Part shown: positions 7,146 to 56,197 of the stretch, piece by piece
Layout of the letters: every line of letters begins with the position of its first letter
Position numbering within the stretch: position 1 is the stretch's first letter
Origin: [Zimmermannella] faecalis ATCC 13722
Lineage (GTDB): Bacteria; Actinomycetota; Actinomycetes; Actinomycetales; Microbacteriaceae
Direction: 5' to 3'
Assembly: GCF_000381765.1 (NCBI RefSeq)
Contig: NZ_KB907078.1
Span: 124,001 to 188,000, forward strand
Length of the DNA: 64,000 bases
The notes under the pieces: generated by a model
Seen by the model: only the letters and a program-made list of their open reading frames with translations
The model's database searches: none
Told to the model about the DNA's origin: nothing
Made by a program: the position numbers and the translations under genes

Positions 7146-8726
7146 ATGAACTCGCCATCGTCTCGCCCGAACTTGCTCGTCATCCTCGCCGACGACCTCG
7201 GGTTCTCTGACCTCGGCTGCTACGGCGGTGAGATTCCCACCCCGAACCTCGATGCCCTCGCCGCGCGCGGTACGCGCCTCTCGAGCTTCTACACGACCCC
7301 GCGCTGCAGCCCCACTCGCGCCTCGCTCATTACCGGCCGCCAGTCGCACGAGGTCGGCATTGGCGTGCTCACGCGCCCCGTCGGCTACCGCGGCTCGATC
7401 GACCCCGACGTGCCGACGATCGCAACCGTGCTGCGCGATGCCGGATACGCGACGAGCCTCACCGGCAAGTGGCACCTCGCCGCCGACGTCACCGAGCCGA
7501 ACGCGAGCTGGCCCACACGTCGGGGGTTTGAGGACTTCTACGGAATCCTCGGCGGCGGCACGAGCTACTTCAATCCGCAGGCGTTCTATGCGGGCGAGCA
7601 GCCAATCAGCGTGCCCGCCACCGACGACGAGTTTTACCTCACCAATGCCCTCACCGACCACGCGAAGGAATTCACGGCAAAGGCGGTCGGCCTCGGCGAT
7701 CCCTTCTTTCTCTACCTCGCGTACACCGCGCCGCACTGGCCGCTGCAGGCGCCGCAGCACGAGATCGACGCGCAGCGCGGCAACTACGCGCAGGGGTGGG
7801 ATGCGCTGCGCACTGCCCGGCACGAGCGGCAGGACGACCTCGGGCTGTTCCCCGAACCGGTCGCCCTCACCCCGCGGGATGCTGGTGAGCCCGCGTGGGA
7901 CGATGCGGCCGACCGCGACTGGCAGCAGTCGCGCATGGAGGTCTACGCCGCGCAGGTGGCCGCGCTCGACCGGAACGTCGGTGAGCTTCTCGAGCATCTC
8001 GACGAGCTCGGGGTGCGCGACAACACGTTCGTCCTGTTCCTCTCAGATAACGGCGCCGAGGCGTGGGAGCTCGCCCGCGGCAAGTTCCTCGCGCCGCACG
8101 TCACACCGAACACGACGCGCGCGGGCGACCCGGTCGAGATCGGCAATGCCTCGGATATCGCCCCGGGCGGCGAGGCGACCTTCACGAGCTACGGTCGCCC
8201 CTGGGCAAACGTGTCGATGACGCCGTTCCGCCTCTACAAGACGTGGGTGCACGAGGGCGGCATCGCGGCACCGCTCATCTGCTCGTGGCCGGCCGGCCGG
8301 CTCACGCAGGATCGCGTGCAGCATCAGCCGCAGCACGTGGTCGATCTGCTGCCAACCGCCCTCGACGCGCTCGGGGTCGCCGCACCGCAGCACCTCGCCG
8401 GCGAGAGTTTTCTCGATGCGCTTCGCGACGACTCACCCGACACGGCGGCGTCAGATCGGGCGCTGTGCTGGGAACACATCGGCAACGCGGCCGTCCGTCG
8501 CGGCCGGTACAAGCTCGTGCGCGAACAGGGTGAGCCGTGGGAGCTCTACGACGTGCTCACCGATCGCGCCGAGCTCACCAACCTCGCGGGCGAGCATCCT
8601 GAGGTCGTCACCGACCTCGCCGAGGTCTGGGAGACGTGGGCACGCAACCACGGCGTGCAGCCGTGGCCCGACGTCGTGAACGCATATGTTGAGCGCGGCC
8701 TCCCCGCGTGGCAGGCGAGGTCGTAG
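7146..8726 (+). CDS. Arylsulfatase-family sulfatase (formylglycine type)
   Basis: This 526-residue enzyme hydrolyses sulfate esters. The N-terminal ILADDLGFSDLGCYGG supplies metal-binding aspartates. The sulfatase signature CSPTRASLITGR begins at Cys54, which must be oxidised to formylglycine. Further motifs are GKWHLA, and LSDNGAEAWE, which adds Asp and Asn metal ligands. No signal peptide is visible, so it should act in the cytoplasm on imported substrate. GGAGGCACC precedes the ATG at 7146. The gene runs head-on into the formylglycine-generating enzyme gene with a 4-bp gap. Length and the insertion before LSDNG resemble class-I bacterial arylsulfatases; the natural substrate is unknown. 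Confidence 0.92.
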   Translation: MNSPSSRPNLLVILADDLGFSDLGCYGGEIPTPNLDALAARGTRLSSFYTTPRCSPTRASLITGRQSHEVGIGVLTRPVGYRGSIDPDVPTIATVLRDAGYATSLTGKWHLAADVTEPNASWPTRRGFEDFYGILGGGTSYFNPQAFYAGEQPISVPATDDEFYLTNALTDHAKEFTAKAVGLGDPFFLYLAYTAPHWPLQAPQHEIDAQRGNYAQGWDALRTARHERQDDLGLFPEPVALTPRDAGEPAWDDAADRDWQQSRMEVYAAQVAALDRNVGELLEHLDELGVRDNTFVLFLSDNGAEAWELARGKFLAPHVTPNTTRAGDPVEIGNASDIAPGGEATFTSYGRPWANVSMTPFRLYKTWVHEGGIAAPLICSWPAGRLTQDRVQHQPQHVVDLLPTALDALGVAAPQHLAGESFLDALRDDSPDTAASDRALCWEHIGNAAVRRGRYKLVREQGEPWELYDVLTDRAELTNLAGEHPEVVTDLAEVWETWARNHGVQPWPDVVNAYVERGLPAWQARS

Positions 8727-13574: not shown

Positions 13575-15050
13575 ATGAAGTTCCCGAATCCCCTTCTCCC
13601 GGGGTTCCACCCCGACCCGAGCATCGTGCGCGTCGACGACGACTATTACCTCGTCACTTCGACGATGGAGTATCTCCCCGGGTTCCCGATCTATCGCGGC
13701 CGCGGAGACCTGTTCGAGTGGGAACACATCGGCAACGTCGCCGATCGACCCGGACAACTCGACCTCGACGGCACGCCGACCGGCGGCGGCGGTTGGGCGC
13801 CGACGATTCGCCACCGAGACGGCACGTTCTACGTGGTCGTGACCGACCGCTGGGGTCGCGGCACGCTGCTGTTTACCGCGGCCGACCCAGCTGGCCCGTG
13901 GAGCGACGGAATCGTGCTCGACCTCGACAACGCGATCGACCCCGACATCACCTGGACCGACGACGGCACGTGCCTGCTCACCTACGCAGTCCTGCCGTTC
14001 GGAGGCGGAGAGGAGGGCATCTTCCAAGCGGCCCTCGATCCCGAGTCGGGCGCGCTCCTCGAGGCGCCCCGGCGCCTGTGGTCGGGCACCGGCATGATGC
14101 TCCCGGAGGCCCCGCACCTCTATCGCCGCAACGGCTGGTGGTACCTCGTTATCGCCGAGGGCGGCACGGCCCGCGGCCACTCGGTGAGCGTCGCCCGGAG
14201 CCGCAGGCCCGACGGTGCGTTCGAACCGGCGCCGCACAACCCCATCCTCACGGCCCGGAGCTCCGACCAGCCGGTGCAAAACGTCGGCCACGCCGATTTC
14301 GTCGAGACGCAAGACGGCGACTGGTTCGCGGTCGTGCTTGGCTCGCGCATCCGCGGCATGATGCCCGGTTTCTCGGCGCTCGGGCGCGAGACCTACGCCA
14401 CGTCAATCGCCTGGCACGATGACTGGCCGCATCTCGCACAGATCGAGCTTGCGCCTCAGCCTGAGGCCGTACAACGCTGGACTCCGGACCCCAGCGGGCT
14501 CGGCCCCGAATGGCTCGGCGTTCGGCGGCTCCCGACTGAGTTCACCGAAGTTGTCGACGGGCGGCTCCTCGTGCACGCGGACGGTGCCTCGCTCGATGAT
14601 CCCACTCCGACATTCGTCGGCCGCCGCGAGCGGCATCTCACCTCCCGAACGACGGCATGCCTCGACGTCTCGCGCGGCGAGGGCGGGCTCGTGCTGCGGT
14701 TCCGCGAGGGCGCGTGGTGCGAGATCGGCGTGCACGACGAACGCCTCGTCGCCACCGTGAGTGCGGCCGGGCTCCGACAGCAATGGCTGGCCGAATCACC
14801 GGTGACCGACGTCGTGCACCTCACGATTCGCACCCGGCGCCCGCGCGGGAACCCGTTCAACACCCTCGCGCCCGATTTCATCGACCTCGCGGTAGAAGTC
14901 GATGGCGAGCCCGAGGTCGTGGCCACGATCGACGGCCGCCTGCTCTCGGCCGAATTCGCCGCCTCAATGAGCGGCCGCATCATCGGTGTGGCCGCGACGA
15001 GCGGCGTCATCGGTGTCGACTGGATCGACACCGACGGCGACGACAGCTGA
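13575..15050 (+). CDS. Glycoside hydrolase family 43 (beta-xylosidase / arabinofuranosidase)
   Basis: This 491-residue enzyme has an N-terminal five-bladed propeller and a C-terminal beta-sandwich. The GH43 catalytic triad is visible: general base Asp in GFHPDPS (residue 14), pKa-modulating Asp in AIDPDITW and acid Glu in LPEAPHLY. There is no signal peptide, so it should cleave imported xylo-oligosaccharides to xylose for XylA. AGGAG precedes the ATG at 13575. It follows the regulator gene by 13 bp. Specificity between xylosidase and arabinofuranosidase cannot be settled by eye; the xylose locus favours the former. Confidence 0.88.
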   Translation: MKFPNPLLPGFHPDPSIVRVDDDYYLVTSTMEYLPGFPIYRGRGDLFEWEHIGNVADRPGQLDLDGTPTGGGGWAPTIRHRDGTFYVVVTDRWGRGTLLFTAADPAGPWSDGIVLDLDNAIDPDITWTDDGTCLLTYAVLPFGGGEEGIFQAALDPESGALLEAPRRLWSGTGMMLPEAPHLYRRNGWWYLVIAEGGTARGHSVSVARSRRPDGAFEPAPHNPILTARSSDQPVQNVGHADFVETQDGDWFAVVLGSRIRGMMPGFSALGRETYATSIAWHDDWPHLAQIELAPQPEAVQRWTPDPSGLGPEWLGVRRLPTEFTEVVDGRLLVHADGASLDDPTPTFVGRRERHLTSRTTACLDVSRGEGGLVLRFREGAWCEIGVHDERLVATVSAAGLRQQWLAESPVTDVVHLTIRTRRPRGNPFNTLAPDFIDLAVEVDGEPEVVATIDGRLLSAEFAASMSGRIIGVAATSGVIGVDWIDTDGDDS

Positions 15051-47351: not shown

Positions 47352-49988
47352 CTACGCGTCGCCGCGGCGGCGCACCAGCATGAGCGTCAGGCCGAGCGCG
47401 AGGGCGAGCACGCCCGCCGCGATACCCGCGAACATCGCGGTCTCGTTCGCACCGGTCACGGCGAGCCCGTCGTTCGAGCCGTTGTCGCCGTCACCCTTGC
47501 CGGGGATGTCACCCGAGTCGCCTTCGGTCGGGGAGGCCCCGCCGTCGTCATCGCCGACCGTGAAGGTCACCGACGCGGCGAGCTCGCCCTGGGTCGCCGA
47601 CACCGTGTAGGTGCCGGCCGGCCACTCGAGGTTGTCCTCGATGACGGCGCCCGTGTCGGCGTCGACCGTGCGGTACGTGAGGGTGCCGCCGAACATGCCG
47701 TCAGCATCCGCCTGCACCTCCTCGACCTCCGAGGTCGCGCCCGAGGCGTCGGTGATCGAGATCGTCACGGCCTCGTTCGGGGTGAAGTACGCGCCGGCGT
47801 ACTGGATGCCCTCGGCCGACTCCGCGAACGTGTAGTGCTCCTGCTCGGTGACGATCGTCGGGTCCTGCACCTGCGTCTCGGTCGGCGACTGCGTCGGGTC
47901 GGTCTGCGACGGCGACGGCGACGGGGTCGGTGGCGTGGTCTGCGCCTCGGTGACGGTGAGCGGCAGGTTCACGGTCGAGCCCGAGGGCTGCGCGACGAGC
48001 TGCACCGTGTAGTCACCGGCGGCGGTGTCGGCCGGGACCGTGAGGGTGACGGCGGCGGCCGTGCCCTCGTCGCCCGCTTCGAGCGTGCCCTCGCCGATGA
48101 CCTGACCGTCGAGCTGCACCTCGACCGAGGTGTTCTCGACCGCGTCGAGCGACGTGAGGTCGGTGTCGCTCACGGTGAACTCAAGCGAGTCGCCCGCGGC
48201 GACCGACGGGGTCGTGCCCGCTTCGCCGAAGTAGTCGGCTACCTGGAAGTTGCCGCGCGTCTGGTTCGGCACGAGTTCCTGGTTCGGCTGGCTCTGCACG
48301 TACTGCACGAACGCGTCGAGGTCGACCGAACCGGTGTCGTAGACACCCTCGTTGTTGTTGATCGAGAAGAAGTTGTCGCCGCCCGCTGCGAGGAACGACG
48401 GCATGACGACCTTGTAGACCTGGTCGTCGACGAGCGCCTCACCGTCGATGTACACCGACGTGATGTGGCTGCCCTGCGTCGTGAGCGGGTCGTCGGAGGT
48501 CGAGCCGGTGTAGGTGTAGTCGACGTTCGACGACACCCCGAGCTGCAGGTACGGACGCGACGGCACGGCGCCCTCGGCGTCGACCTGCCACTGCTCCTCG
48601 AGCACGTTCTTCAGCTCGGCGCCGGTGAGCGACACGACCGAGAGGTTGTTCACGAACGGGAGCACGACCTGCGCATCCTTGTACGTGAGCACACCGTCGC
48701 CGGCGATGTCGGCGCGCAGGCCGCCCGGGTTCATGATCGACAGGTCGGCGTCGAGCGCCTCGGTACCGACGCTCTGCGCCCAGCCGACCATCGAGTCGGC
48801 GATGAGCGTGCCGAGCGTCGACGTCGCGGCACGGTTGTCTTCAACCGTCACGTTGCCGTTCTCGTCGTAGGTCTTGCCGCGGGTGATGTCGTCGTTCACG
48901 ACGCCGATCTGCTCAGCGCCGAGCACCTCGGCCTCTTCGAGCGCGGCCTCCTGAATCGCGACGACCTCGTCGTAGGTCGCGCGCGAGGCGTCAGAGAGGG
49001 TCGTGTAGTCGACGCGCGGGGCGCTCTCGCCCTCGGCGTCCTCCACGAACGTCGGAATCACCGACGACGACGAGGCGACGACGTTGCCGTCGGCGTCAAC
49101 GTCGAGCACGATCTGCCCGACGTTCTCGGCGTACTGGCCGGCCTGCACGACCTGGCGGGTCTTGCCGTCAACCGTGGTCTCGTAGTTGTAGGCCTGGTGC
49201 GTGTGGGCCTCGTAGATCGCGTCGACGTCGGTCGAGGTCTCCTCGGCCATCTTCACGAACGTCGCGTTCGAGGCGTTCGAGTCGTAGCTGCCGCTCGTCG
49301 GGCCGCCCTCGTGGTACGAGGCGATGATGATGTCGGCTTCGCCGTTCGAGTCATCGCCGTCGGAAAGCTCGGCGGCGACCTCGTTGACCGCGTCAACCGG
49401 GTCGGTGAACGTGAGGCCCTCGATGCCCGCGGGGCTCACGCCCGACGCGGTCGACTCCGTCACGGCGCCGATCACGGCGACCGTGAAGCCCTCGATTTCG
49501 AAGGTGTTGTAGGCGTCGAGCAGCAGCGTGCCGTCTTCCTTGACGACGTTCGCCGCGAGCAGCGACCCGAACTCCTCCTGGATCGCGAGCGCATCCTCTT
49601 GGCCCTTGTCGAACTCGTGGTTGCCCGAGGTGAACGAGTCGACGCCGAGCGCGACGAGCGCGTCCTTCGTGGGCTGGTCACCGGCGACCGACGACTCGAA
49701 CTCCGACGCGCCAACCTGGTCACCGTTGCCGATGATGAGGCTGTTGTCGGCGCCGAAGGTGTCCTGCACCTGCAGCACGTTCGCGGCGAACGCGTCGACC
49801 TGCGTGATGCGGCCGTGGAAGTCGTTAAAGCCGATGAGGTTGATCTGGGTGGTGCCGGCGGTGGGCTGAATAACCTCGCCGGTCGACAGGGCATCGGCCT
49901 GCGCCGGTGCCACGAACGCGGTGACGGCGAGTGCGCAGCCGGCAGTGGCTGCGACACCGCCCTTCACCATCTTGGACTTGTGAGCCAC
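47352..49988 (-). CDS. Cell-wall-anchored 5'-nucleotidase / 2',3'-cyclic phosphodiesterase, UshA family
   Basis: This 878-residue secreted enzyme dephosphorylates nucleotides. After a signal peptide (AGCALAVTAFVAPAQADA) come the calcineurin-like metallophosphatase domain (GFNDFHGRI, IGNGDQVGASEF, SGNHEFDKG, ASYHEGGP, EAHTHQAYN), the UshA C-terminal domain (MNPGGLRADI; AAGGDNFFSI), Ig-like domains and a sorting tail LAVTG, hydrophobic helix and RRRGDA for an actinobacterial sortase. The GTG at 49988 has AGGAGG upstream. The protein is longer than E. coli UshA because of the extra wall-proximal domains. Its promoter carries Pho-box-like repeats. Confidence 0.9.
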   Translation of the reverse strand: MAHKSKMVKGGVAATAGCALAVTAFVAPAQADALSTGEVIQPTAGTTQINLIGFNDFHGRITQVDAFAANVLQVQDTFGADNSLIIGNGDQVGASEFESSVAGDQPTKDALVALGVDSFTSGNHEFDKGQEDALAIQEEFGSLLAANVVKEDGTLLLDAYNTFEIEGFTVAVIGAVTESTASGVSPAGIEGLTFTDPVDAVNEVAAELSDGDDSNGEADIIIASYHEGGPTSGSYDSNASNATFVKMAEETSTDVDAIYEAHTHQAYNYETTVDGKTRQVVQAGQYAENVGQIVLDVDADGNVVASSSSVIPTFVEDAEGESAPRVDYTTLSDASRATYDEVVAIQEAALEEAEVLGAEQIGVVNDDITRGKTYDENGNVTVEDNRAATSTLGTLIADSMVGWAQSVGTEALDADLSIMNPGGLRADIAGDGVLTYKDAQVVLPFVNNLSVVSLTGAELKNVLEEQWQVDAEGAVPSRPYLQLGVSSNVDYTYTGSTSDDPLTTQGSHITSVYIDGEALVDDQVYKVVMPSFLAAGGDNFFSINNNEGVYDTGSVDLDAFVQYVQSQPNQELVPNQTRGNFQVADYFGEAGTTPSVAAGDSLEFTVSDTDLTSLDAVENTSVEVQLDGQVIGEGTLEAGDEGTAAAVTLTVPADTAAGDYTVQLVAQPSGSTVNLPLTVTEAQTTPPTPSPSPSQTDPTQSPTETQVQDPTIVTEQEHYTFAESAEGIQYAGAYFTPNEAVTISITDASGATSEVEEVQADADGMFGGTLTYRTVDADTGAVIEDNLEWPAGTYTVSATQGELAASVTFTVGDDDGGASPTEGDSGDIPGKGDGDNGSNDGLAVTGANETAMFAGIAAGVLALALGLTLMLVRRRGDA

Positions 49989-50036
49989 TTGGCCTCCTGT
50001 TGCTGGAAGTTGAACTCGGCAAGAGTTTCACTCCCA

Positions 50037-50064
50037 AGTAACGATCAGGTAAAGCTCAGGCAAT
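50037..50064 (-). promoter_or_regulatory. Pho-box-like 11-bp direct repeats upstream of the nucleotidase gene
   Basis: On the plus strand AGTAAC (50037), GGTAAA (50048) and the weaker GGCAAT (50059) recur every 11 bp, about 50-75 bp before the start. The gap 49989-50111 holds no gene. Confidence 0.55.
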
Positions 50065-50111
50065 AGCAAGCCCTTGACGTCGGTTGACGCCGAATTCGTG
50101 CCGAACTGCGG

Positions 50112-51077
50112 CTACTTCGCGCCCTCCGGCTGCCAGGTTGACACCTCGGTGAGCGAGGCAAGCTCGTCGTCGCTCAGGGTGAGGGTGGCGGATGCGATGA
50201 GGTCGGGCAGCTGCTCGGCGCGCGACACGCTCGCGATCGGCGCGGCGACGGCGGGCTGCTGGCGCAGCCAGGCGAGGCCGGTCGACGTGATGCTCGCGTC
50301 GTGGGCGGCACCGATGCGCTCGAGCTCGTCGATGATGCGCAGGCCCTGCTCGGTGGCGAACTTCGAGGCGCCGCCGGCGCGGGGCGAGTCGCCCTGCTCG
50401 ACCTGCTCGCGGTACTTGCCGGTGAGGAAGCCGCTCGCGAGCGAGCCCCAGGGCAGGATGCTCAGGTTGTGGCGCAGCGCGACCGGCTGCACGTCGTCCT
50501 CGACATCGTTGCGGTGCACGAGGTTGTATTGCGGCTGCAGCGCGACCGGCTTCGCGGCGCCGGTGCGCTCGGCGATGTCGAGCCAGCGCTCGGTCTCGGC
50601 GCCCGAGTAGTTCGAGAGGCCGATGTTCGCGATGATGCCGTCGCGCACGAGCGCGTCGAACGCCGCGACGGTGTCTTGGAGCGGCGTTTCGGGGTCGGGC
50701 TGGTGCGCGTAGAAGAGGTCGATCTGTTCGACGCCGAGGCGCTCGCGCGACTGCTCGGCGACCGCGCGCACGTTCTCGGCGGTGAGCGACGTCGCGCCGG
50801 GGAGCATCCCCACCTTCGTCGCGATCTGTACGCCCTCGGGCTTGCGGTCGGCGAGCCAGGCGCCGATGACGCGCTCGCTCTCGCCGCCCTCGTGGCCCGG
50901 AACCCAGGCGCTGTACGAGTCGGCGGTGTCGATGAGGGTGCCACCGGCGGCGACGAAGGCGTCGAGGATCTCGAAGCTTGCGGCCTCGTCGGCGGTCCAG
51001 CCGAAGACGTTGCCGCCGAGCACGAGCGGGAAGATTTCGAGGTTGCTGTCGCCGAGACGGATGCGTGAAGTAGTCAT
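50112..51077 (-). CDS. Aldo/keto reductase
   Basis: This 321-residue NADPH-dependent oxidoreductase has the (beta/alpha)8 fold and catalytic tetrad: Asp and Tyr in LIDTADSYSAW, Lys in IATKVGM and His in FYAHQPD; the cofactor loop SLASGFLTGKYRE is also clear. The ATG at 51077 starts the RLGDSNLEIFPLVLGGNVFGW segment; upstream sequence belongs to a repeat. It lies between the nuclease and nucleotidase genes on the same strand but shows no functional link to them. Confidence 0.9.
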   Translation of the reverse strand: MTTSRIRLGDSNLEIFPLVLGGNVFGWTADEAASFEILDAFVAAGGTLIDTADSYSAWVPGHEGGESERVIGAWLADRKPEGVQIATKVGMLPGATSLTAENVRAVAEQSRERLGVEQIDLFYAHQPDPETPLQDTVAAFDALVRDGIIANIGLSNYSGAETERWLDIAERTGAAKPVALQPQYNLVHRNDVEDDVQPVALRHNLSILPWGSLASGFLTGKYREQVEQGDSPRAGGASKFATEQGLRIIDELERIGAAHDASITSTGLAWLRQQPAVAAPIASVSRAEQLPDLIASATLTLSDDELASLTEVSTWQPEGAK

Positions 51078-51177
51078 GTGGGCGACAACCGACGGTGTTG
51101 CGTGGGTATTCCGGCGGGTTGCTGAAGTGTTGCTGGGTGCTACGCGCGGGTGCCGCTGCGTCGCGACGGCAGCGGGT

Positions 51178-51233
51178 GCATCCTGCGGTGGGTGGGTGCA
51201 TGGTGTGCCATACACCCGCCCGCCGCAGGATGC
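51178..51233. repeat. Inverted relative of the 44.9-kb repeat, long hairpin
   Basis: Arms 51178-51198 and 51213-51233 pair over 21 bp with two G-T pairs. Read on the minus strand its second half matches the first unit at 44885. It lies between the reductase start and the nuclease stop; no gene is seen in 51078-51275. Confidence 0.75.
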
Positions 51234-51275
51234 TCCCGTTCGAGGCCGGGACCGCCGGGTTCGGAGCAGCCTGGA

Positions 51276-54236
51276 CTAAGCGCGTCGGCGGGCGATCACG
51301 AGGCCCATCCCCGCGAGCACCAGCACGAGGGCCGCCGCGGCGCCGATGAGGAGCGCGTCGTCGGCACCGGTCTCGGCGAGGCCGCCGCCGTTCCCGCCAG
51401 CGTCGACGCCGTCAACGCCGCCGCTGCCACTGCCGTTTCCGCTGCCGGTCGTGCCGTCGCCCGGCGCGGCTGGGTCGGTCGCTGCCGGATCCGTCGTCAC
51501 CGGATCGCTCGGCGCCGGAGTCGCGCCAGGCGCATCCGTGTCGCCAGGCGCGTCCGTGTCACCAGGCGTCTCACCGGGTGCGTCCGTGTCGCCAGGCCCA
51601 TCCGTGTCGCCGGGCGTCTCACCGGGTGCGTCCGTGTCGCCAGGCCCATCCGTGTCGCCGGGCGTCTCACCGGGTGCGTCCGTGTCGCCAGGCCCATCCG
51701 TGTCACCAGGCCCATCCGTGTCGCCCGGCTCCTCGTCGGCGACCGACATGCCGACGATGATCGGGTTGTGGTCGGATGCGCGGAACGGCGACTCGTCGTA
51801 TAGCTGCGTCACGTTGTAGTTGAAGCGGCTGTACTCGAGGGCGATGGGCTCGTAGGCGTTGATGGTCCAGATGTCGGCGGCGTCCATGCGCTCGGCCGCG
51901 GCGGGCGAGAGCAGCAGGTGGTCGAGCGAGCCGACCGTGCCGATCTTGCCGCCGGTCGCGAGCTCTGACGTGTAGAGGTAGCTGTAGTCGCCGTCGTCGG
52001 TGGCCGGAACGTATCCGGCGTCGGTGAGCGTCGTCACCGGCGCCTCCATGGAGTACGAGTTGAGGTCGCCCGTGATGAAGAGGAGATCGGTGCCGGCCGC
52101 CTCCTGCTGCGCGTCGGCGAACTCGAGCAGGGCCTCGGCCTGGCGCACGCGGTCGCCGTTCCAGCCACCGACGGCGCTCGCCGGGTTGCCGGCGTCGAGG
52201 TTCTCGTTGTCGCCCTCGCCCGAACCACCCTTCGACTTGAAGTGGTTCGCGATCACGACGAAGTAGTCGTCGACGTCGGCGACCGGGGCGAACGTCGCGG
52301 CGAGCGGGGCGCGCGCGTCGGCGAACGCCGGGTCGTCGAGCAGCACGGTGCTGCCGTCGAGGTAGGTGACCTCGGCGGGCTGGTAGATGAACGCGGTGCG
52401 GATCACGTCGTCGCCCGTCGCCGGAATCACCTCGGGCGAGGGCACGTAGGCCCACTTCTCGGAGCCCGCGGCCTCGTTCAGCGCGTCGACGAGCTGCGCG
52501 AGCGCGGCGTCGCGGTCATCGCCGAAGTCCGACGAGTCTTCGATCTCTTCGAGCCCGATCACCGACGCGTCGAGCGCGCTGATCGCCGTGACGATCTTCT
52601 GCTGCTGGCGCTCGAAGTTCGCCTCGTCGTAGGCGCCGCGCGGCGTGCAGTAGTCGGCTGTCGTGGGGTTGCCCTCGCGGTCGGGGTAGTACTCGCAGCC
52701 CTCTTCGGTGTTGCCGAGGGTCGTGAAGTAGTTGAGCACGTTGAACGAGGCGACCGTGTAGTCAGAGCCCGAGAAGTCGGCGGGCGCGTGCTCGCGGGCG
52801 TCGCTGAACGACGCGGGCGCGTTCTCGGTGCCGACGACCTGCTCCTGCGGCTGCAGGCGCCACATGTCGTAGCCGTACGACACGATCACCGGCTGGCTGA
52901 ACGTCGTCGTCGCGCCGACCGTCACGGGCGAGTCGAGGTCGAGGTACGGCAGCGGCGAGTTCTTCGCGGTGTCGTTGCTCGAGTAGTCCCAGCTCGCGCC
53001 GTCGTCGAGCAGCACGGCGCGGGCCGTGTTCTCGTCGACCTGCGCCTGCGCCTCGGCCGAGCCGGGGGCGCCGACCTCGGTCGCGTTCACGAGCGGACCG
53101 TCGCCGAACGCGAGCCCGATCTCGCCGAAGCGGTTGAGCGAGTAGTTGTCGGTCACCGTGTAGGTGCCCTGCGGCGCGACGAGCATGCCCTCGTACTGCT
53201 CGCGCTCGGCCTCGGTTGCGGGCCACTCGTCAAGTTCGAGCGCCTCGACCGAGCCGATCGACTCGGGTAGCTCGGCCACGGTTGGGTTCGTGAGCTGCGT
53301 GAGGCCGTTGTACTCGTCGGGGGTGCCGGTGACGGCGACCGAGTCGCCGATCTCGACCGAGGGCGCTGAGCCCGTGTAAACGAAGATGCCGGTGGATGAG
53401 CCGTCGACGGCCTCGACGGGCGCGCCGGCCGCGTCGGTGGTCGGGGTCTGCAGGTAGAAGCCGTTGAGCCCGCCGGTCGGGTACGCCGCGGTGACGATGC
53501 CGCAGGCGGTGACCGGGGTGTCGCCCGGCAGCTCGGTCGCGTTGCCAGTTCCCTGAATCTCGGCGATCTCGATGTCGCACTCGGCCGGCTCGACCGGGTC
53601 GGGCGACGGCGGCGTCGACCCGTCGCCCGTCGTGACCTCACCCGGCGTGGGCTCGGCCGCCACGAAGTCGGCGGAGTTGTCGTCGGTGTCGGTGCCCTCG
53701 GCGTCGCGCTGCGCCGAAACGGCGTTGCCGAGCGCAGGTGCCGGAGCGGTCTCGTAGGCGTTGCCGCCCACCGTGCCGAAGCCGACGAGGTCGACAATCT
53801 CGCCCTGCGCATCCTGCAGGTGCACTGCCCCGTTCGATGCCCCGAGCGCGAAGTTACCGTCGACGTCAACCTCAACGTCGGCCGCGTCGGTGTTGTTGCC
53901 GTAGGCGCCGCCCACGACGAGCGTCTCGCCCGGCGCGATCGTCGTGCCCGCCGGCAGCGTGACGGCGTCGTCTTGCGGGTTACCGCTGCCCGAGTACCGC
54001 ACGACCTGGTAGCTGCTGAGGTCAATTGCCGCGTCGGTCGGGTTGTAGAGCTCGACATAGTCGCGGTTGACGGGGGCGCCGCTGTTGCCGCCACCGCCGT
54101 AGACCTCGCTAATCACGACCGCGGTGCCGTCGGGCGCGGCCGCCGCCGAGCCGGGCTGGCCGAGCACGGCAACGCTGCCGGCTCCGAGTGCCACCGCGAG
54201 CGCCGCGGCGCCAAGTTGCTTGAAGGGGTTTCGCAC
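51276..54236 (-). CDS. Cell-wall-anchored extracellular nuclease, ExeM/NucH family
   Basis: This 986-residue secreted nuclease degrades extracellular DNA. Domains in order are a signal peptide (LAVALGAGSVAVLGQPGSAA), a lamin-tail domain (VVISEVYGGGGNSGAPVNRD), an OB-fold region (IAEIQGTGNATELPG), an endonuclease/exonuclease/phosphatase domain (VASFNVLNYF, IGLEEIEDSS, FITGDLNSYS, GSLDHLLLS, RASDHNPIIVG), an acidic Asp/Gly/Pro/Thr repeat stalk and the sorting tail LAETG, helix, ARRRA. The start is GTG at 54236 with GAGGAAG upstream. It shares tail type and promoter repeats with the nucleotidase, with which it could liberate phosphate from DNA. Confidence 0.92.
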   Translation of the reverse strand: MRNPFKQLGAAALAVALGAGSVAVLGQPGSAAAAPDGTAVVISEVYGGGGNSGAPVNRDYVELYNPTDAAIDLSSYQVVRYSGSGNPQDDAVTLPAGTTIAPGETLVVGGAYGNNTDAADVEVDVDGNFALGASNGAVHLQDAQGEIVDLVGFGTVGGNAYETAPAPALGNAVSAQRDAEGTDTDDNSADFVAAEPTPGEVTTGDGSTPPSPDPVEPAECDIEIAEIQGTGNATELPGDTPVTACGIVTAAYPTGGLNGFYLQTPTTDAAGAPVEAVDGSSTGIFVYTGSAPSVEIGDSVAVTGTPDEYNGLTQLTNPTVAELPESIGSVEALELDEWPATEAEREQYEGMLVAPQGTYTVTDNYSLNRFGEIGLAFGDGPLVNATEVGAPGSAEAQAQVDENTARAVLLDDGASWDYSSNDTAKNSPLPYLDLDSPVTVGATTTFSQPVIVSYGYDMWRLQPQEQVVGTENAPASFSDAREHAPADFSGSDYTVASFNVLNYFTTLGNTEEGCEYYPDREGNPTTADYCTPRGAYDEANFERQQQKIVTAISALDASVIGLEEIEDSSDFGDDRDAALAQLVDALNEAAGSEKWAYVPSPEVIPATGDDVIRTAFIYQPAEVTYLDGSTVLLDDPAFADARAPLAATFAPVADVDDYFVVIANHFKSKGGSGEGDNENLDAGNPASAVGGWNGDRVRQAEALLEFADAQQEAAGTDLLFITGDLNSYSMEAPVTTLTDAGYVPATDDGDYSYLYTSELATGGKIGTVGSLDHLLLSPAAAERMDAADIWTINAYEPIALEYSRFNYNVTQLYDESPFRASDHNPIIVGMSVADEEPGDTDGPGDTDGPGDTDAPGETPGDTDGPGDTDAPGETPGDTDGPGDTDAPGETPGDTDAPGDTDAPGATPAPSDPVTTDPAATDPAAPGDGTTGSGNGSGSGGVDGVDAGGNGGGLAETGADDALLIGAAAALVLVLAGMGLVIARRRA
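51529..51726. repeat. In-frame 48-bp tandem repeats encoding the nuclease stalk
   Basis: Three near-identical 48-bp units begin at 51571, 51619 and 51667 and encode 16-residue DGPGDTDAPGETPGDT repeats, flanked by shorter GDTDxPG units. Such identical units change copy number easily and would vary stalk length. Confidence 0.85.
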
Positions 54237-54270
54237 GAACGCTTCCTCACGTCAGGAACAAGTTGTCCCG

Positions 54271-54313
54271 ACCCTAGGCCAACCCAGCGACACGAAGGTA
54301 ACGCGCGGGTAAC
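54271..54313 (-). promoter_or_regulatory. Nuclease promoter with Pho-box-like repeats
   Basis: On the plus strand GGTAACGCG occurs at 54297 and again at 54308, an 11-bp period with 9 identical bases. A possible -10, TAGGGT on the minus strand, lies at 54271-54276, placing the repeats over the -35 region where a PhoP-type activator would bind. Confidence 0.6.
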
Positions 54314-54394
54314 GCGGCGGATGCGCGTGGGCGGGCTGGGCGATCGTCGTGCGGTGGCGTGTGGGCGGTCGTCGTGCGGTGGTGTGTGGCGGCG

Positions 54395-55246: not shown

Positions 55247-56197
55247 ATGCGATTGGGCGTTCTCGATGTCGGTTCGAACACGGTACACCTTTTGGTCGTT
55301 GACGCTCATCCGGGCGCGCGACCGGTGCACAAGACGTCCACGAAGTCGGTGTTGCGGCTCATGAAGTACCTGCAGCCTGACGGCTCGATCTCGAAGGCGG
55401 GCGTCGAGCGCATCATGGAGACGATGCACGCTGCGGCCGCGCACATTGAGGCGGCGAACCTCGACGAGCTGCTCCCGATGGCGACGAGCGCGCTGCGCGA
55501 GGCGAAGAACGGCCCGAAGCTGCTGAAGCGCATCCGCAAGGAGTGCGGCATCGACCTGCAGGTGATGAGCGGCGCCGACGAGGCCCGCGTGACTTTCCTC
55601 GCGGTGCGTCGCTGGTTCGGTTGGAACGCCGGCCGCATCCTCCTCGTCGACATCGGCGGCGGCTCGCTCGAGCTCGCGGTCGGCACCGACGAGCTACCCG
55701 AGCTCGCGCTTTCGCTGCCGCTCGGCGCGGGCCGCATGACGAAGCAGTTCCTCACCGACGACCCGCCCTCCGACTCCGAGCTCGAGACCCTGCAGGCACA
55801 CATCGACGAGGTGCTGCCCGAGGCCGTCGAGCGCCTCGGCGAGCTGCGCCACGCCGACCAGGTCGTCGGCTCGTCGAAGACCATCCGCTCGCTCGCACGC
55901 CTGGCCGGCTCGCAGGCCGAGGGCCTCGGCGGCAACACCCGCACCCGCCTGTACCGCTGGCAGCTCGAAGACTGGCTCCCCCGCCTCGCCGAGCTCCCCT
56001 CGAAGGCGCGCAGCGCGCTGCCGGGCATCACGCAAGACCGCGCCTTCCAGATCGTCGGCGGCGGCACCGTGCTGCTGTCGGTGATGCGCGCGCTCGACAT
56101 CGAACGCCTCGACATCTCGCCGTGGGCCATGCGCGAGGGCGTGCTGCTCGACTACCTCGACCGGCTGCCGAACGACCCCGAGAAGAAGCGCAAGTAG
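55247..56197 (+). CDS. ppx: Ppx/GppA phosphatase family protein
   Basis: This 316-residue protein of the ASKHA fold hydrolyses polyphosphate or pppGpp. Signatures are LDVGSNTVHLLVVDA, the phosphate-2 loop LLVDIGGGSLELAVG and QIVGGGTVLLSVMRAL. It is the short form, lacking the C-terminal HD domain, like mycobacterial PPX1. I chose the ATG at 55247 over a GTG two codons earlier because it matches the leaderless spacing and the conserved first strand. Confidence 0.9.
   Translation: MRLGVLDVGSNTVHLLVVDAHPGARPVHKTSTKSVLRLMKYLQPDGSISKAGVERIMETMHAAAAHIEAANLDELLPMATSALREAKNGPKLLKRIRKECGIDLQVMSGADEARVTFLAVRRWFGWNAGRILLVDIGGGSLELAVGTDELPELALSLPLGAGRMTKQFLTDDPPSDSELETLQAHIDEVLPEAVERLGELRHADQVVGSSKTIRSLARLAGSQAEGLGGNTRTRLYRWQLEDWLPRLAELPSKARSALPGITQDRAFQIVGGGTVLLSVMRALDIERLDISPWAMREGVLLDYLDRLPNDPEKKRK

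Follow-up and report, generated by a model that had tools for sequence, protein, structure and literature searches.

Variant PHO-type repeats upstream of a nuclease gene and a nucleotidase gene suggest phosphate control in [Zimmermannella] faecalis ATCC 13722

Introduction

What controls a nuclease gene and a nucleotidase gene that lie close together in [Zimmermannella] faecalis ATCC 13722? Both belong to a 64,000-nucleotide stretch of this genome (contig NZ_KB907078.1, positions 124,001 to 188,000; G000:C5:124001-188000 in our numbering), hereafter the window; the whole host genome, G000, has 2.85 Mb. An initial annotation, made from the letters alone, had noticed repeats of 11-bp period before each gene and proposed that they form a variant of the PHO box bound by PhoP. 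Our analysis supports this proposal: the half-sites differ from the GTTCACC of Streptomyces, half-sites of the same type are found at pstS, phoU and phoA of the genus, and both promoters are probably part of a PhoP-controlled phosphate-scavenging system acting through variant PHO sites.

That enzymes of these two kinds respond to phosphate starvation, as had been suggested for this locus, is already known from Corynebacterium glutamicum, in which nucH, ushA and phoC are induced late and their promoters are bound by PhoR~P (PMC3353115). The best binding unit of that system, CCTGTGAA, differs from the repeats described here, and in the present case the two genes are close together and, in related genera, fused. 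We compared the locus across a genus set of 11 genomes (G000 to G010, "genus" being the database label) and searched 60 genomes in total for homologues of the nuclease and the nucleotidase; for comparison, we took 30 loci each from those matched by pstS and by the nuclease.

Results

Both sets of repeats lie exactly where they had been placed. GGTAACGCG occurs at 54297-54305 and 54308-54316, and AGTAAC, GGTAAA and GGCAAT occur at 50037, 50048 and 50059, with the proposed period of 11 bp, so that the sites consist of direct repeats spaced as in PhoP operators. Their reading as boxes holds, but not their strand: both genes are on the minus strand, and the motif is to be read as GTTACC or CGTTACC. 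On the coding strand, the nuclease gene, with its GTG start at 54236, is preceded at 61-78 nt by CGTTACC-CGCG-CGTTACC, and the nucleotidase gene, with its GTG start at 49988, is preceded at 49-66 nt by CTTTACC-TGAT-CGTTACT. Two members of the nucleotidase triplet are conserved; the third (GGCAAT) is not, in any of the seven other genomes that have the site.

With up to two mismatches, GGTAAC-N5-GGTAAC is found five times in the window, against 1.12 matches expected and none of 100 shuffles reaching five; its only exact occurrence, there and genome-wide, is the nuclease pair. A chance resemblance without function would agree with the shortness and degeneracy of the motif and with the count of one-mismatch matches to this strict pair, which is no higher in the genome (two) than in the reversed control (three). 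Against chance, the pattern KTTACC-N5-GTTACY, which was widened after the sequences of relatives had been seen, has exactly two matches in the 2.85-Mb genome, at the nuclease and nucleotidase promoters (none in the reversed control), and the block TTnACCT-N4-GTTAC of the nucleotidase promoter is invariant in eight genomes, while most other upstream sequence has diverged. Moreover, in 150-bp upstream regions, the KTNACC scores of the nuclease (9 promoters), the nucleotidase (11) and phoA (7) are matched by none of 300 shuffles; full-consensus sites number one, eight and four in these regions, which corresponds to 8 of the 11 genomes for the nucleotidase and 4 of the 7 upstream sequences for phoA. 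We regard chance as a very improbable explanation.

Across the genus, KTTACC-N5-GTTACY has 16 exact matches, compared with one in the reversed control. Seven are upstream of the nucleotidase (G000, G001, G003, G005, G007, G008, and G009), and one each is found at the nuclease, an alkaline phosphatase, a purple-acid-phosphatase-like enzyme and amtB; secreted phosphoester hydrolases thus account for 10 of the 16. Of the remaining five, two are each near a surface protein and one is near an ABC ATPase, all three on the opposite strand; another is near an NMT1-type ABC substrate-binding protein, and the last has no clear gene nearby. The looser KTNACC-N5-GTNACY gives 176 matches versus 76 in the reversed control. 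Among the 153 distinct matches examined, 65 are coding and 88 lie outside called genes, these classes being approximate, as assigned with a home-made gene finder that sets some starts too far inside. The noncoding matches include phosphate-type genes, i.e., phoU (four genomes), alkaline phosphatase (four), the nucleotidase (eight) and a GDPD-family gene (G006), and cell-wall-type genes, i.e., M23 peptidases (G000 and G003), SLT transglycosylases (G006 and G000, with an overlap of site and called gene start in the latter) and DivIVA-like genes (G000, G007, and G009), as well as amtB (G009) and a purF-like gene (five genomes, opposite strand).

Three of these sites deserve mention in their own right. 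The GDPD-family site (G006:C14 near 35868, locus L274) lies directly before a glycerophosphoryl diester phosphodiesterase family gene, an expected Pho gene. The purF-like gene is preceded, at 38-56 nt and on the opposite strand, by a TTYACC-ATTCT-GTCACY block conserved in the five genomes (L332, L263, L292, L305, and L269). Before the DivIVA-like coiled-coil gene of G000, G007 and G009, there is a triple 11-bp repeat (G000:C8:56508-56535; L177 and L236, also L216 and L323), which is a candidate MtrA operator.

The pstS promoters provide the reference for such sites. Repeats at pst or phoA had been named as a test of the PHO-box proposal, and half-sites of this type are indeed present at both, in the promoter position described below for pstS and as the pairs already mentioned for phoA. 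The proposed departure from GTTCACC is borne out at the nuclease and nucleotidase promoters, but the classical PHO box is present in the same genome, at pstS. The pstS box matches 12 or 13 of 13 positions in each of 10 genomes of the genus, and in the eleventh it matches 14 of 14 positions of a longer form. In the same 10 genomes, a TANNNT hexamer lies exactly 31 nt past the box; the eleventh (G002), taken after the rules were set, has the box, TACCGT at 31 nt and CGTCACC in slot 9 (slots 42, 31, 20, and 9 being the number of nucleotides between the end of a half-site and the -10 element). Slot 9 of pstS holds a GTnA half-site (CGTCACC, CGTTACC, TGTCACC, GGTCACC and similar) in 11 of 11 genomes. 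Outside the genus, 20 genomes of the family and order were examined; the box is present in 17 and absent from 3, and wherever it is present, TANNNT follows at 31 nt, with GTnA in slot 9 in 11 of the 17 and TTnA in 5 more. Overall, the -10 element stands at 31 nt in all 28 pstS promoters with a box (31 examined), and slot 9 is GTnA in 22 of them.

The same phase is found at other phosphate genes. At phoU, whose promoter is divergent from the genes for a sensor kinase and PhoP, 10 promoters aligned by hand have GTTnAC in slot 20 in 5 cases and GTnA in slot 9 in 7, both being combined in 5. The second half-site ends 20 nt before TANNNT at the nuclease of G000, G001 and G008 and at phoA of G000 (C6:163219), and 31 nt before it at phoA of G001 and G007 and at a second nucleotidase of G007 and G009 (the G009 site, L322, is absent from the gene finder's noncoding list and was read by hand). 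In G001, phoA and the nuclease have related half-sites in all four slots. Among the 88 noncoding consensus matches, TANNNT occurs at offsets 9, 20 and 31 in 5, 4 and 3 cases, respectively, compared with a mean of 0.34 and a maximum of 3 at other offsets, and the corresponding counts for the 65 coding matches are 1, 0 and 1. Of these 12 in-phase sites, nine belong to the nuclease, phoA, phoU or the second nucleotidase. The remaining three are upstream of an Hsp70-family gene, a Mur-ligase-family gene and the gene for an NMT1-type substrate-binding protein, which also matches, more weakly, a phosphonate-binding family.

This phase bears directly on the main competitor of PhoP. MtrAB, a cell-envelope two-component system, could control both surface enzymes together with cell-wall hydrolases, and the mixed set of genes with KTNACC-N5-GTNACY sites suits MtrA. 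The Streptomyces MtrA consensus is given as K-T-R-A-C-C-N5-G-T-K-A-C-N (PMC5650626), GtnAcC-n5-GTnAcn (PMC13189361) or GTAACC-N5-GTAACC, with phoA and phoP among the named targets (PMC12323332); our consensus fits the published site fully. An mtrA gene is present in the host at G000:C5:30472 to about 31150 (NF040689, 378 bits; cut-off, 300) and scores above cut-off in 10 of the 11 genomes, and the host segment TRLVNVHVQRLRAKVE, presumably the recognition helix, is identical to the same segment of the Mycobacterium tuberculosis protein in PDB 2gwr. This full fit speaks for MtrA, and so do the full-consensus sites of the cell-wall genes, i.e., those of two M23 peptidases, of two SLT transglycosylases and of the DivIVA-like genes. 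The -10 phase, however, separates many phosphate genes from the cell-wall genes: the full-consensus sites of the latter are out of phase with TANNNT, and none of the M23, SLT, DivIVA-like or amtB sites is among the 12 in-phase sites, whereas many phosphate-gene sites keep the phase. In addition, the proximal half-site of pstS is of the same type as those studied here, and in none of 10 genomes does the promoter of mtrA itself contain a full match, the best place agreeing at 7 to 9 of 10 informative positions. We therefore consider control by MtrA unlikely. That PhoP and MtrA both read these sites is less likely still, although their consensus sequences overlap and sites shared by PhoP, GlnR and MtrA are reported in Streptomyces (PMC6988585).

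PhoP control was further probed with a model made of 50 half-sites from pstS and phoU promoters only, together with the slot and -10 rule. Applied to both strands of the window (threshold 8, slot pair 31+9 additionally allowed), it matches once, at the nuclease promoter, whose predicted -10 element spans 54276-54271; the reversed control has no match. Among 276 same-genus loci (threshold 10; 0.93 Mb including overlaps), some of which had been selected for holding the motif, it gives 36 distinct matches, 21 of them in training loci, versus one in the reversed control. The 15 matches in untrained loci are distributed over the nuclease (7 of the 11 genomes), phoA (3 of 7), the second nucleotidase (2) and others (3), with no match at amtB (13 loci) or mtrA (10 loci). 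This test is fair for the window itself and for the loci that were chosen by family, namely those of the nuclease, phoA, amtB and mtrA. Slot 20 of the nuclease promoter, CGTTACC in G000, is GTTCACG, GTTCACT or GTTTACC in four of the matched genomes (G002, G004, G005, and G010).

The host genome encodes seven Trans_reg_C proteins. One is a RegX3-type regulator encoded at G000:C6:96446-97144 (PDB 2oqr; E, 3.7e-97), adjoined by a histidine kinase gene from which a PhoU-like start diverges. Another, L145 (G000:C3:184498-185265), is a receiver-less winged-helix protein whose best PDB matches are 8hml, 8hig and 8hih (E, 7.4e-15), which we take to be GlnR entries. Structures of M. tuberculosis PhoP are matched by L141 (E, 6e-77) and L142 (E, 8e-75). 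Binding by one of these other OmpR-family members, i.e., the GlnR-like, nitrogen-related L145 or the PhoP-related L141 or L142, would be consistent with the exact site at one amtB and with the Streptomyces venezuelae GlnR box GTnAC-n6-GTnAC, which shares spacing and half-site with our consensus (PMC10704036). None of the other six Trans_reg_C proteins has a GlnR entry as its best PDB match, most of the exact sites (10 of 16) belong to phosphoesterase genes, in contrast to GlnR boxes, and the phase is that of pstS. This makes such a regulator a distinctly improbable reader of the sites. GlnR itself was set aside: no full-length GlnR was recognized among the seven proteins, and no glnA was seen by eye among the neighbors of the 153 examined of the 176 sites. 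Partial matches to the MtrA model of an extent like that of L145 are listed in all 11 genomes.

The identities proposed for the two enzymes hold (Table 1). The nuclease scores 548 bits against NF033681 (ExeM/NucH), above the cut-off of 300. Metallophos and 5_nucleotid_C domains are present in the nucleotidase, whose best NCBIfam model is NF007109 (UshA); since it reaches 154 bits, below the equivalog cut-off of 600, we call it UshA-like. Both proteins are predicted to be anchored to the cell wall, as suggested by their C-terminal tails, read by eye as LAVTG or LAETG followed by a hydrophobic stretch and an arginine tail. In all 11 genomes of the genus, exeM and ushA share a strand and lie no more than 3.6 kb apart. 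Among the 60 genomes, 13 (G012, G016, G017, G018, G021, G027, G029, G030, G033, G034, G035, G049, and G059) have equal frame lengths for nuclease and nucleotidase, which indicates one open frame of about 1340 to 2330 amino acids (aa), and this fusion supports a joint function. The aldo/keto reductase gene between the two is probably not part of the system; in the upstream sequence, read by eye, such a gene also separates the enzyme genes in G007 and G009. A search of genome contigs with the nuclease found one relative, on a Cellulomonas contig, and PADLOC returned no match for either enzyme.

Table 1. Coordinates of the two enzyme genes, the gene between them and their promoter elements in the window
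Feature	Position	Strand	Basis
ushA-like 5'-nucleotidase, 878 aa, LAVTG-type C-terminal tail	47352..49988	-	PF02872 (1.1e-31), PF00149
Predicted extended -10 TGA-AACTCT, nucleotidase promoter	50022..50030	-	hexamer 9 nt past second half-site
Half-site CGTTACT, slot 9, nucleotidase promoter	50037..50043	-	conserved in 8 genomes
Half-site CTTTACC, slot 20, nucleotidase promoter	50048..50054	-	TTnACC conserved in 8 genomes
TATTGCC, third nucleotidase repeat (GGCAAT on other strand)	50059..50065	-	not conserved
Aldo/keto reductase gene	50112..51077	-	PF00248 (4.6e-64)
exeM/nucH-type extracellular nuclease, 986 aa, LTD domain, LAETG-type C-terminal tail	51276..54236	-	NF033681, PF00932, PF03372
Predicted -10 TAGGGT, nuclease promoter	54271..54276	-	sole window match of pstS/phoU model, both strands
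Slot 9 unit TGTCGCT, degenerate, nuclease promoter	54286..54292	-	
Half-site CGTTACC, slot 20, nuclease promoter	54297..54303	-	sequence, model match
Half-site CGTTACC, slot 31, nuclease promoter	54308..54314	-	sequence, model match

Further features of the window include a Ppx/GppA-family gene on the opposite strand (55247-56197), close to the nuclease promoter, and, at 51530-51740, a DNA-level tandem repeat in the C-terminal linker of the nuclease that encodes GDTDGPGDTDAPGETP-like units. Identical 17-mers, GGGAACACATCGGCAAC, are found at 8470-8486 and 13720-13736, 5250 bp apart on the same strand, and may mark a duplicated stretch.

Discussion

Our analysis favors the interpretation that the nuclease and nucleotidase genes are under PhoP control. 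From the sequence, conservation and geometry of the sites and from the identities of the genes, which are matters of observation, we infer PhoP as the binder, activation as its effect and low phosphate as the inducing signal. A possible pathway would start with phosphate starvation, under which the RegX3-type PhoP would bind head to tail on the 11-nt repeats and bring RNA polymerase to those promoters that have a -10 element at 9, 20 or 31 nt from a half-site. Two spellings would be used in one register: GTTnACC in the distal positions of pstS, and [C/G]GTnACC in the slot of pstS proximal to the -10 element and often at phoU. In several genomes, the host among them, this second spelling also occurs at the nuclease, the alkaline phosphatase and the second nucleotidase. 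The secreted nuclease would then cut DNA and RNA outside the cell; phosphate would be released from the nucleotides by the nucleotidase and taken up through Pst.

Several observations weigh against this interpretation, in addition to the full fit to the published MtrA site and the out-of-phase cell-wall sites discussed above. The half-sites (CGTTACC, CTTTACC, CGTTACT) lack the Streptomyces core GTTCACC, and a matrix built from 15 pstS promoters gives a score of 5.8 to the nuclease pair and of 0.2 to the best-matching place upstream of the nucleotidase, compared with 20.7 for pstS; it is because of these differences that we speak of a variant and not of a classical box. The pstS promoters (10), which have no full site, likewise exceed all shuffles in KTNACC score (81 versus 69.3), so that this score alone is not specific. 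Out of phase with TANNNT are phoA of G003 (30 nt) and G009 (CAACTT), the nuclease of G007 and G009, and the purple-acid-phosphatase-like gene of G001; the exact site at amtB of G009, a further point against, is likewise out of phase. At the nucleotidase promoter, no TANNNT is in phase; six of its eight sequences have an extended -10 of the form TGn-nAnnnT at offset 9, no other offset from 3 to 35 reaching two of eight, but this element was noticed only after looking. Thus, both promoters have the geometry of pstS, the nucleotidase only by way of the extended -10. The pstS/phoU model fails to match four of the 11 nuclease promoters, four of the seven phoA promoters and any of the 11 nucleotidase promoters, and its same-genus test is affected by the partial selection of loci. 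The phoU sites, aligned by hand, cover 10 of 11 genomes (G004 has none), and in three of the 10 (G001, G002, and G008) the divergent gene is unconfirmed as phoU. Finally, in other genera, none of 21 nuclease promoters has a full KTNACC site, and a PHO match of 12 of 13, reached by 1 of 940 shuffles, is found at only 3 of the 21; the nuclease site should consequently not be called general.

The comparison with Streptomyces places these sites within a known range. Streptomyces PhoP operators are arrays of 11-nt units, head to tail, with a core and less conserved units and with seven conserved and four loose positions per unit (PMC7866108, PMC4415409); PhoP overlaps the -35 region at glpQ1 and glpQ2 (PMC7866108). 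These are points of agreement with the host sites. Since such arrays contain poorly conserved units and PHO sequences differ between promoters of one species (PMC4415409), the variation described here is of a known kind. What differs is that the units at the nuclease, alkaline phosphatase and second nucleotidase are [C/G]GTnACC, with GT shifted by one base in the same register, and that a fixed -10 phase is found. The putative operators of the two genes are best described as made of units mostly spelled CGTnACC. With Streptomyces MtrA sites they share K-T-n-A-C-C-N5-G-T-n-A-C, and phoA is a target there (PMC12323332), but many phosphate-gene sites here keep the pstS phase. In the literature available to us, which left aside most subscription papers, we found no description of the CGTnACC spelling, of its position at pstS or of the -10 phase rule.

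A tentative extension, which we hold to be about as open to doubt as to belief and slightly more so, is that actinobacterial PhoP reads the two spellings by position. GTTnACC would be the distal form, setting affinity, and C[G/T]TnACC the form beside RNA polymerase, in a slot grammar of 42/31/20/9 conserved across the order; the scavenging enzymes, with mostly the proximal spelling, would then form a later, weaker tier predictable from sequence. By analogy with what was proposed for C. glutamicum, one guess is that the proximal spelling at scavenging genes serves a graded response.

A search for classical GTTCACC pairs overlooks the nuclease and the nucleotidase in this genome, and the -10 phase rule allows a sharper prediction of Pho regulons in this order. 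The locus also exposes a concrete ambiguity, PhoP or MtrA, in the assignment of such sites. By the phase rule, nuclease and nucleotidase, fused in related genera, would be tied to the scavenging of phosphate from extracellular nucleic acids.

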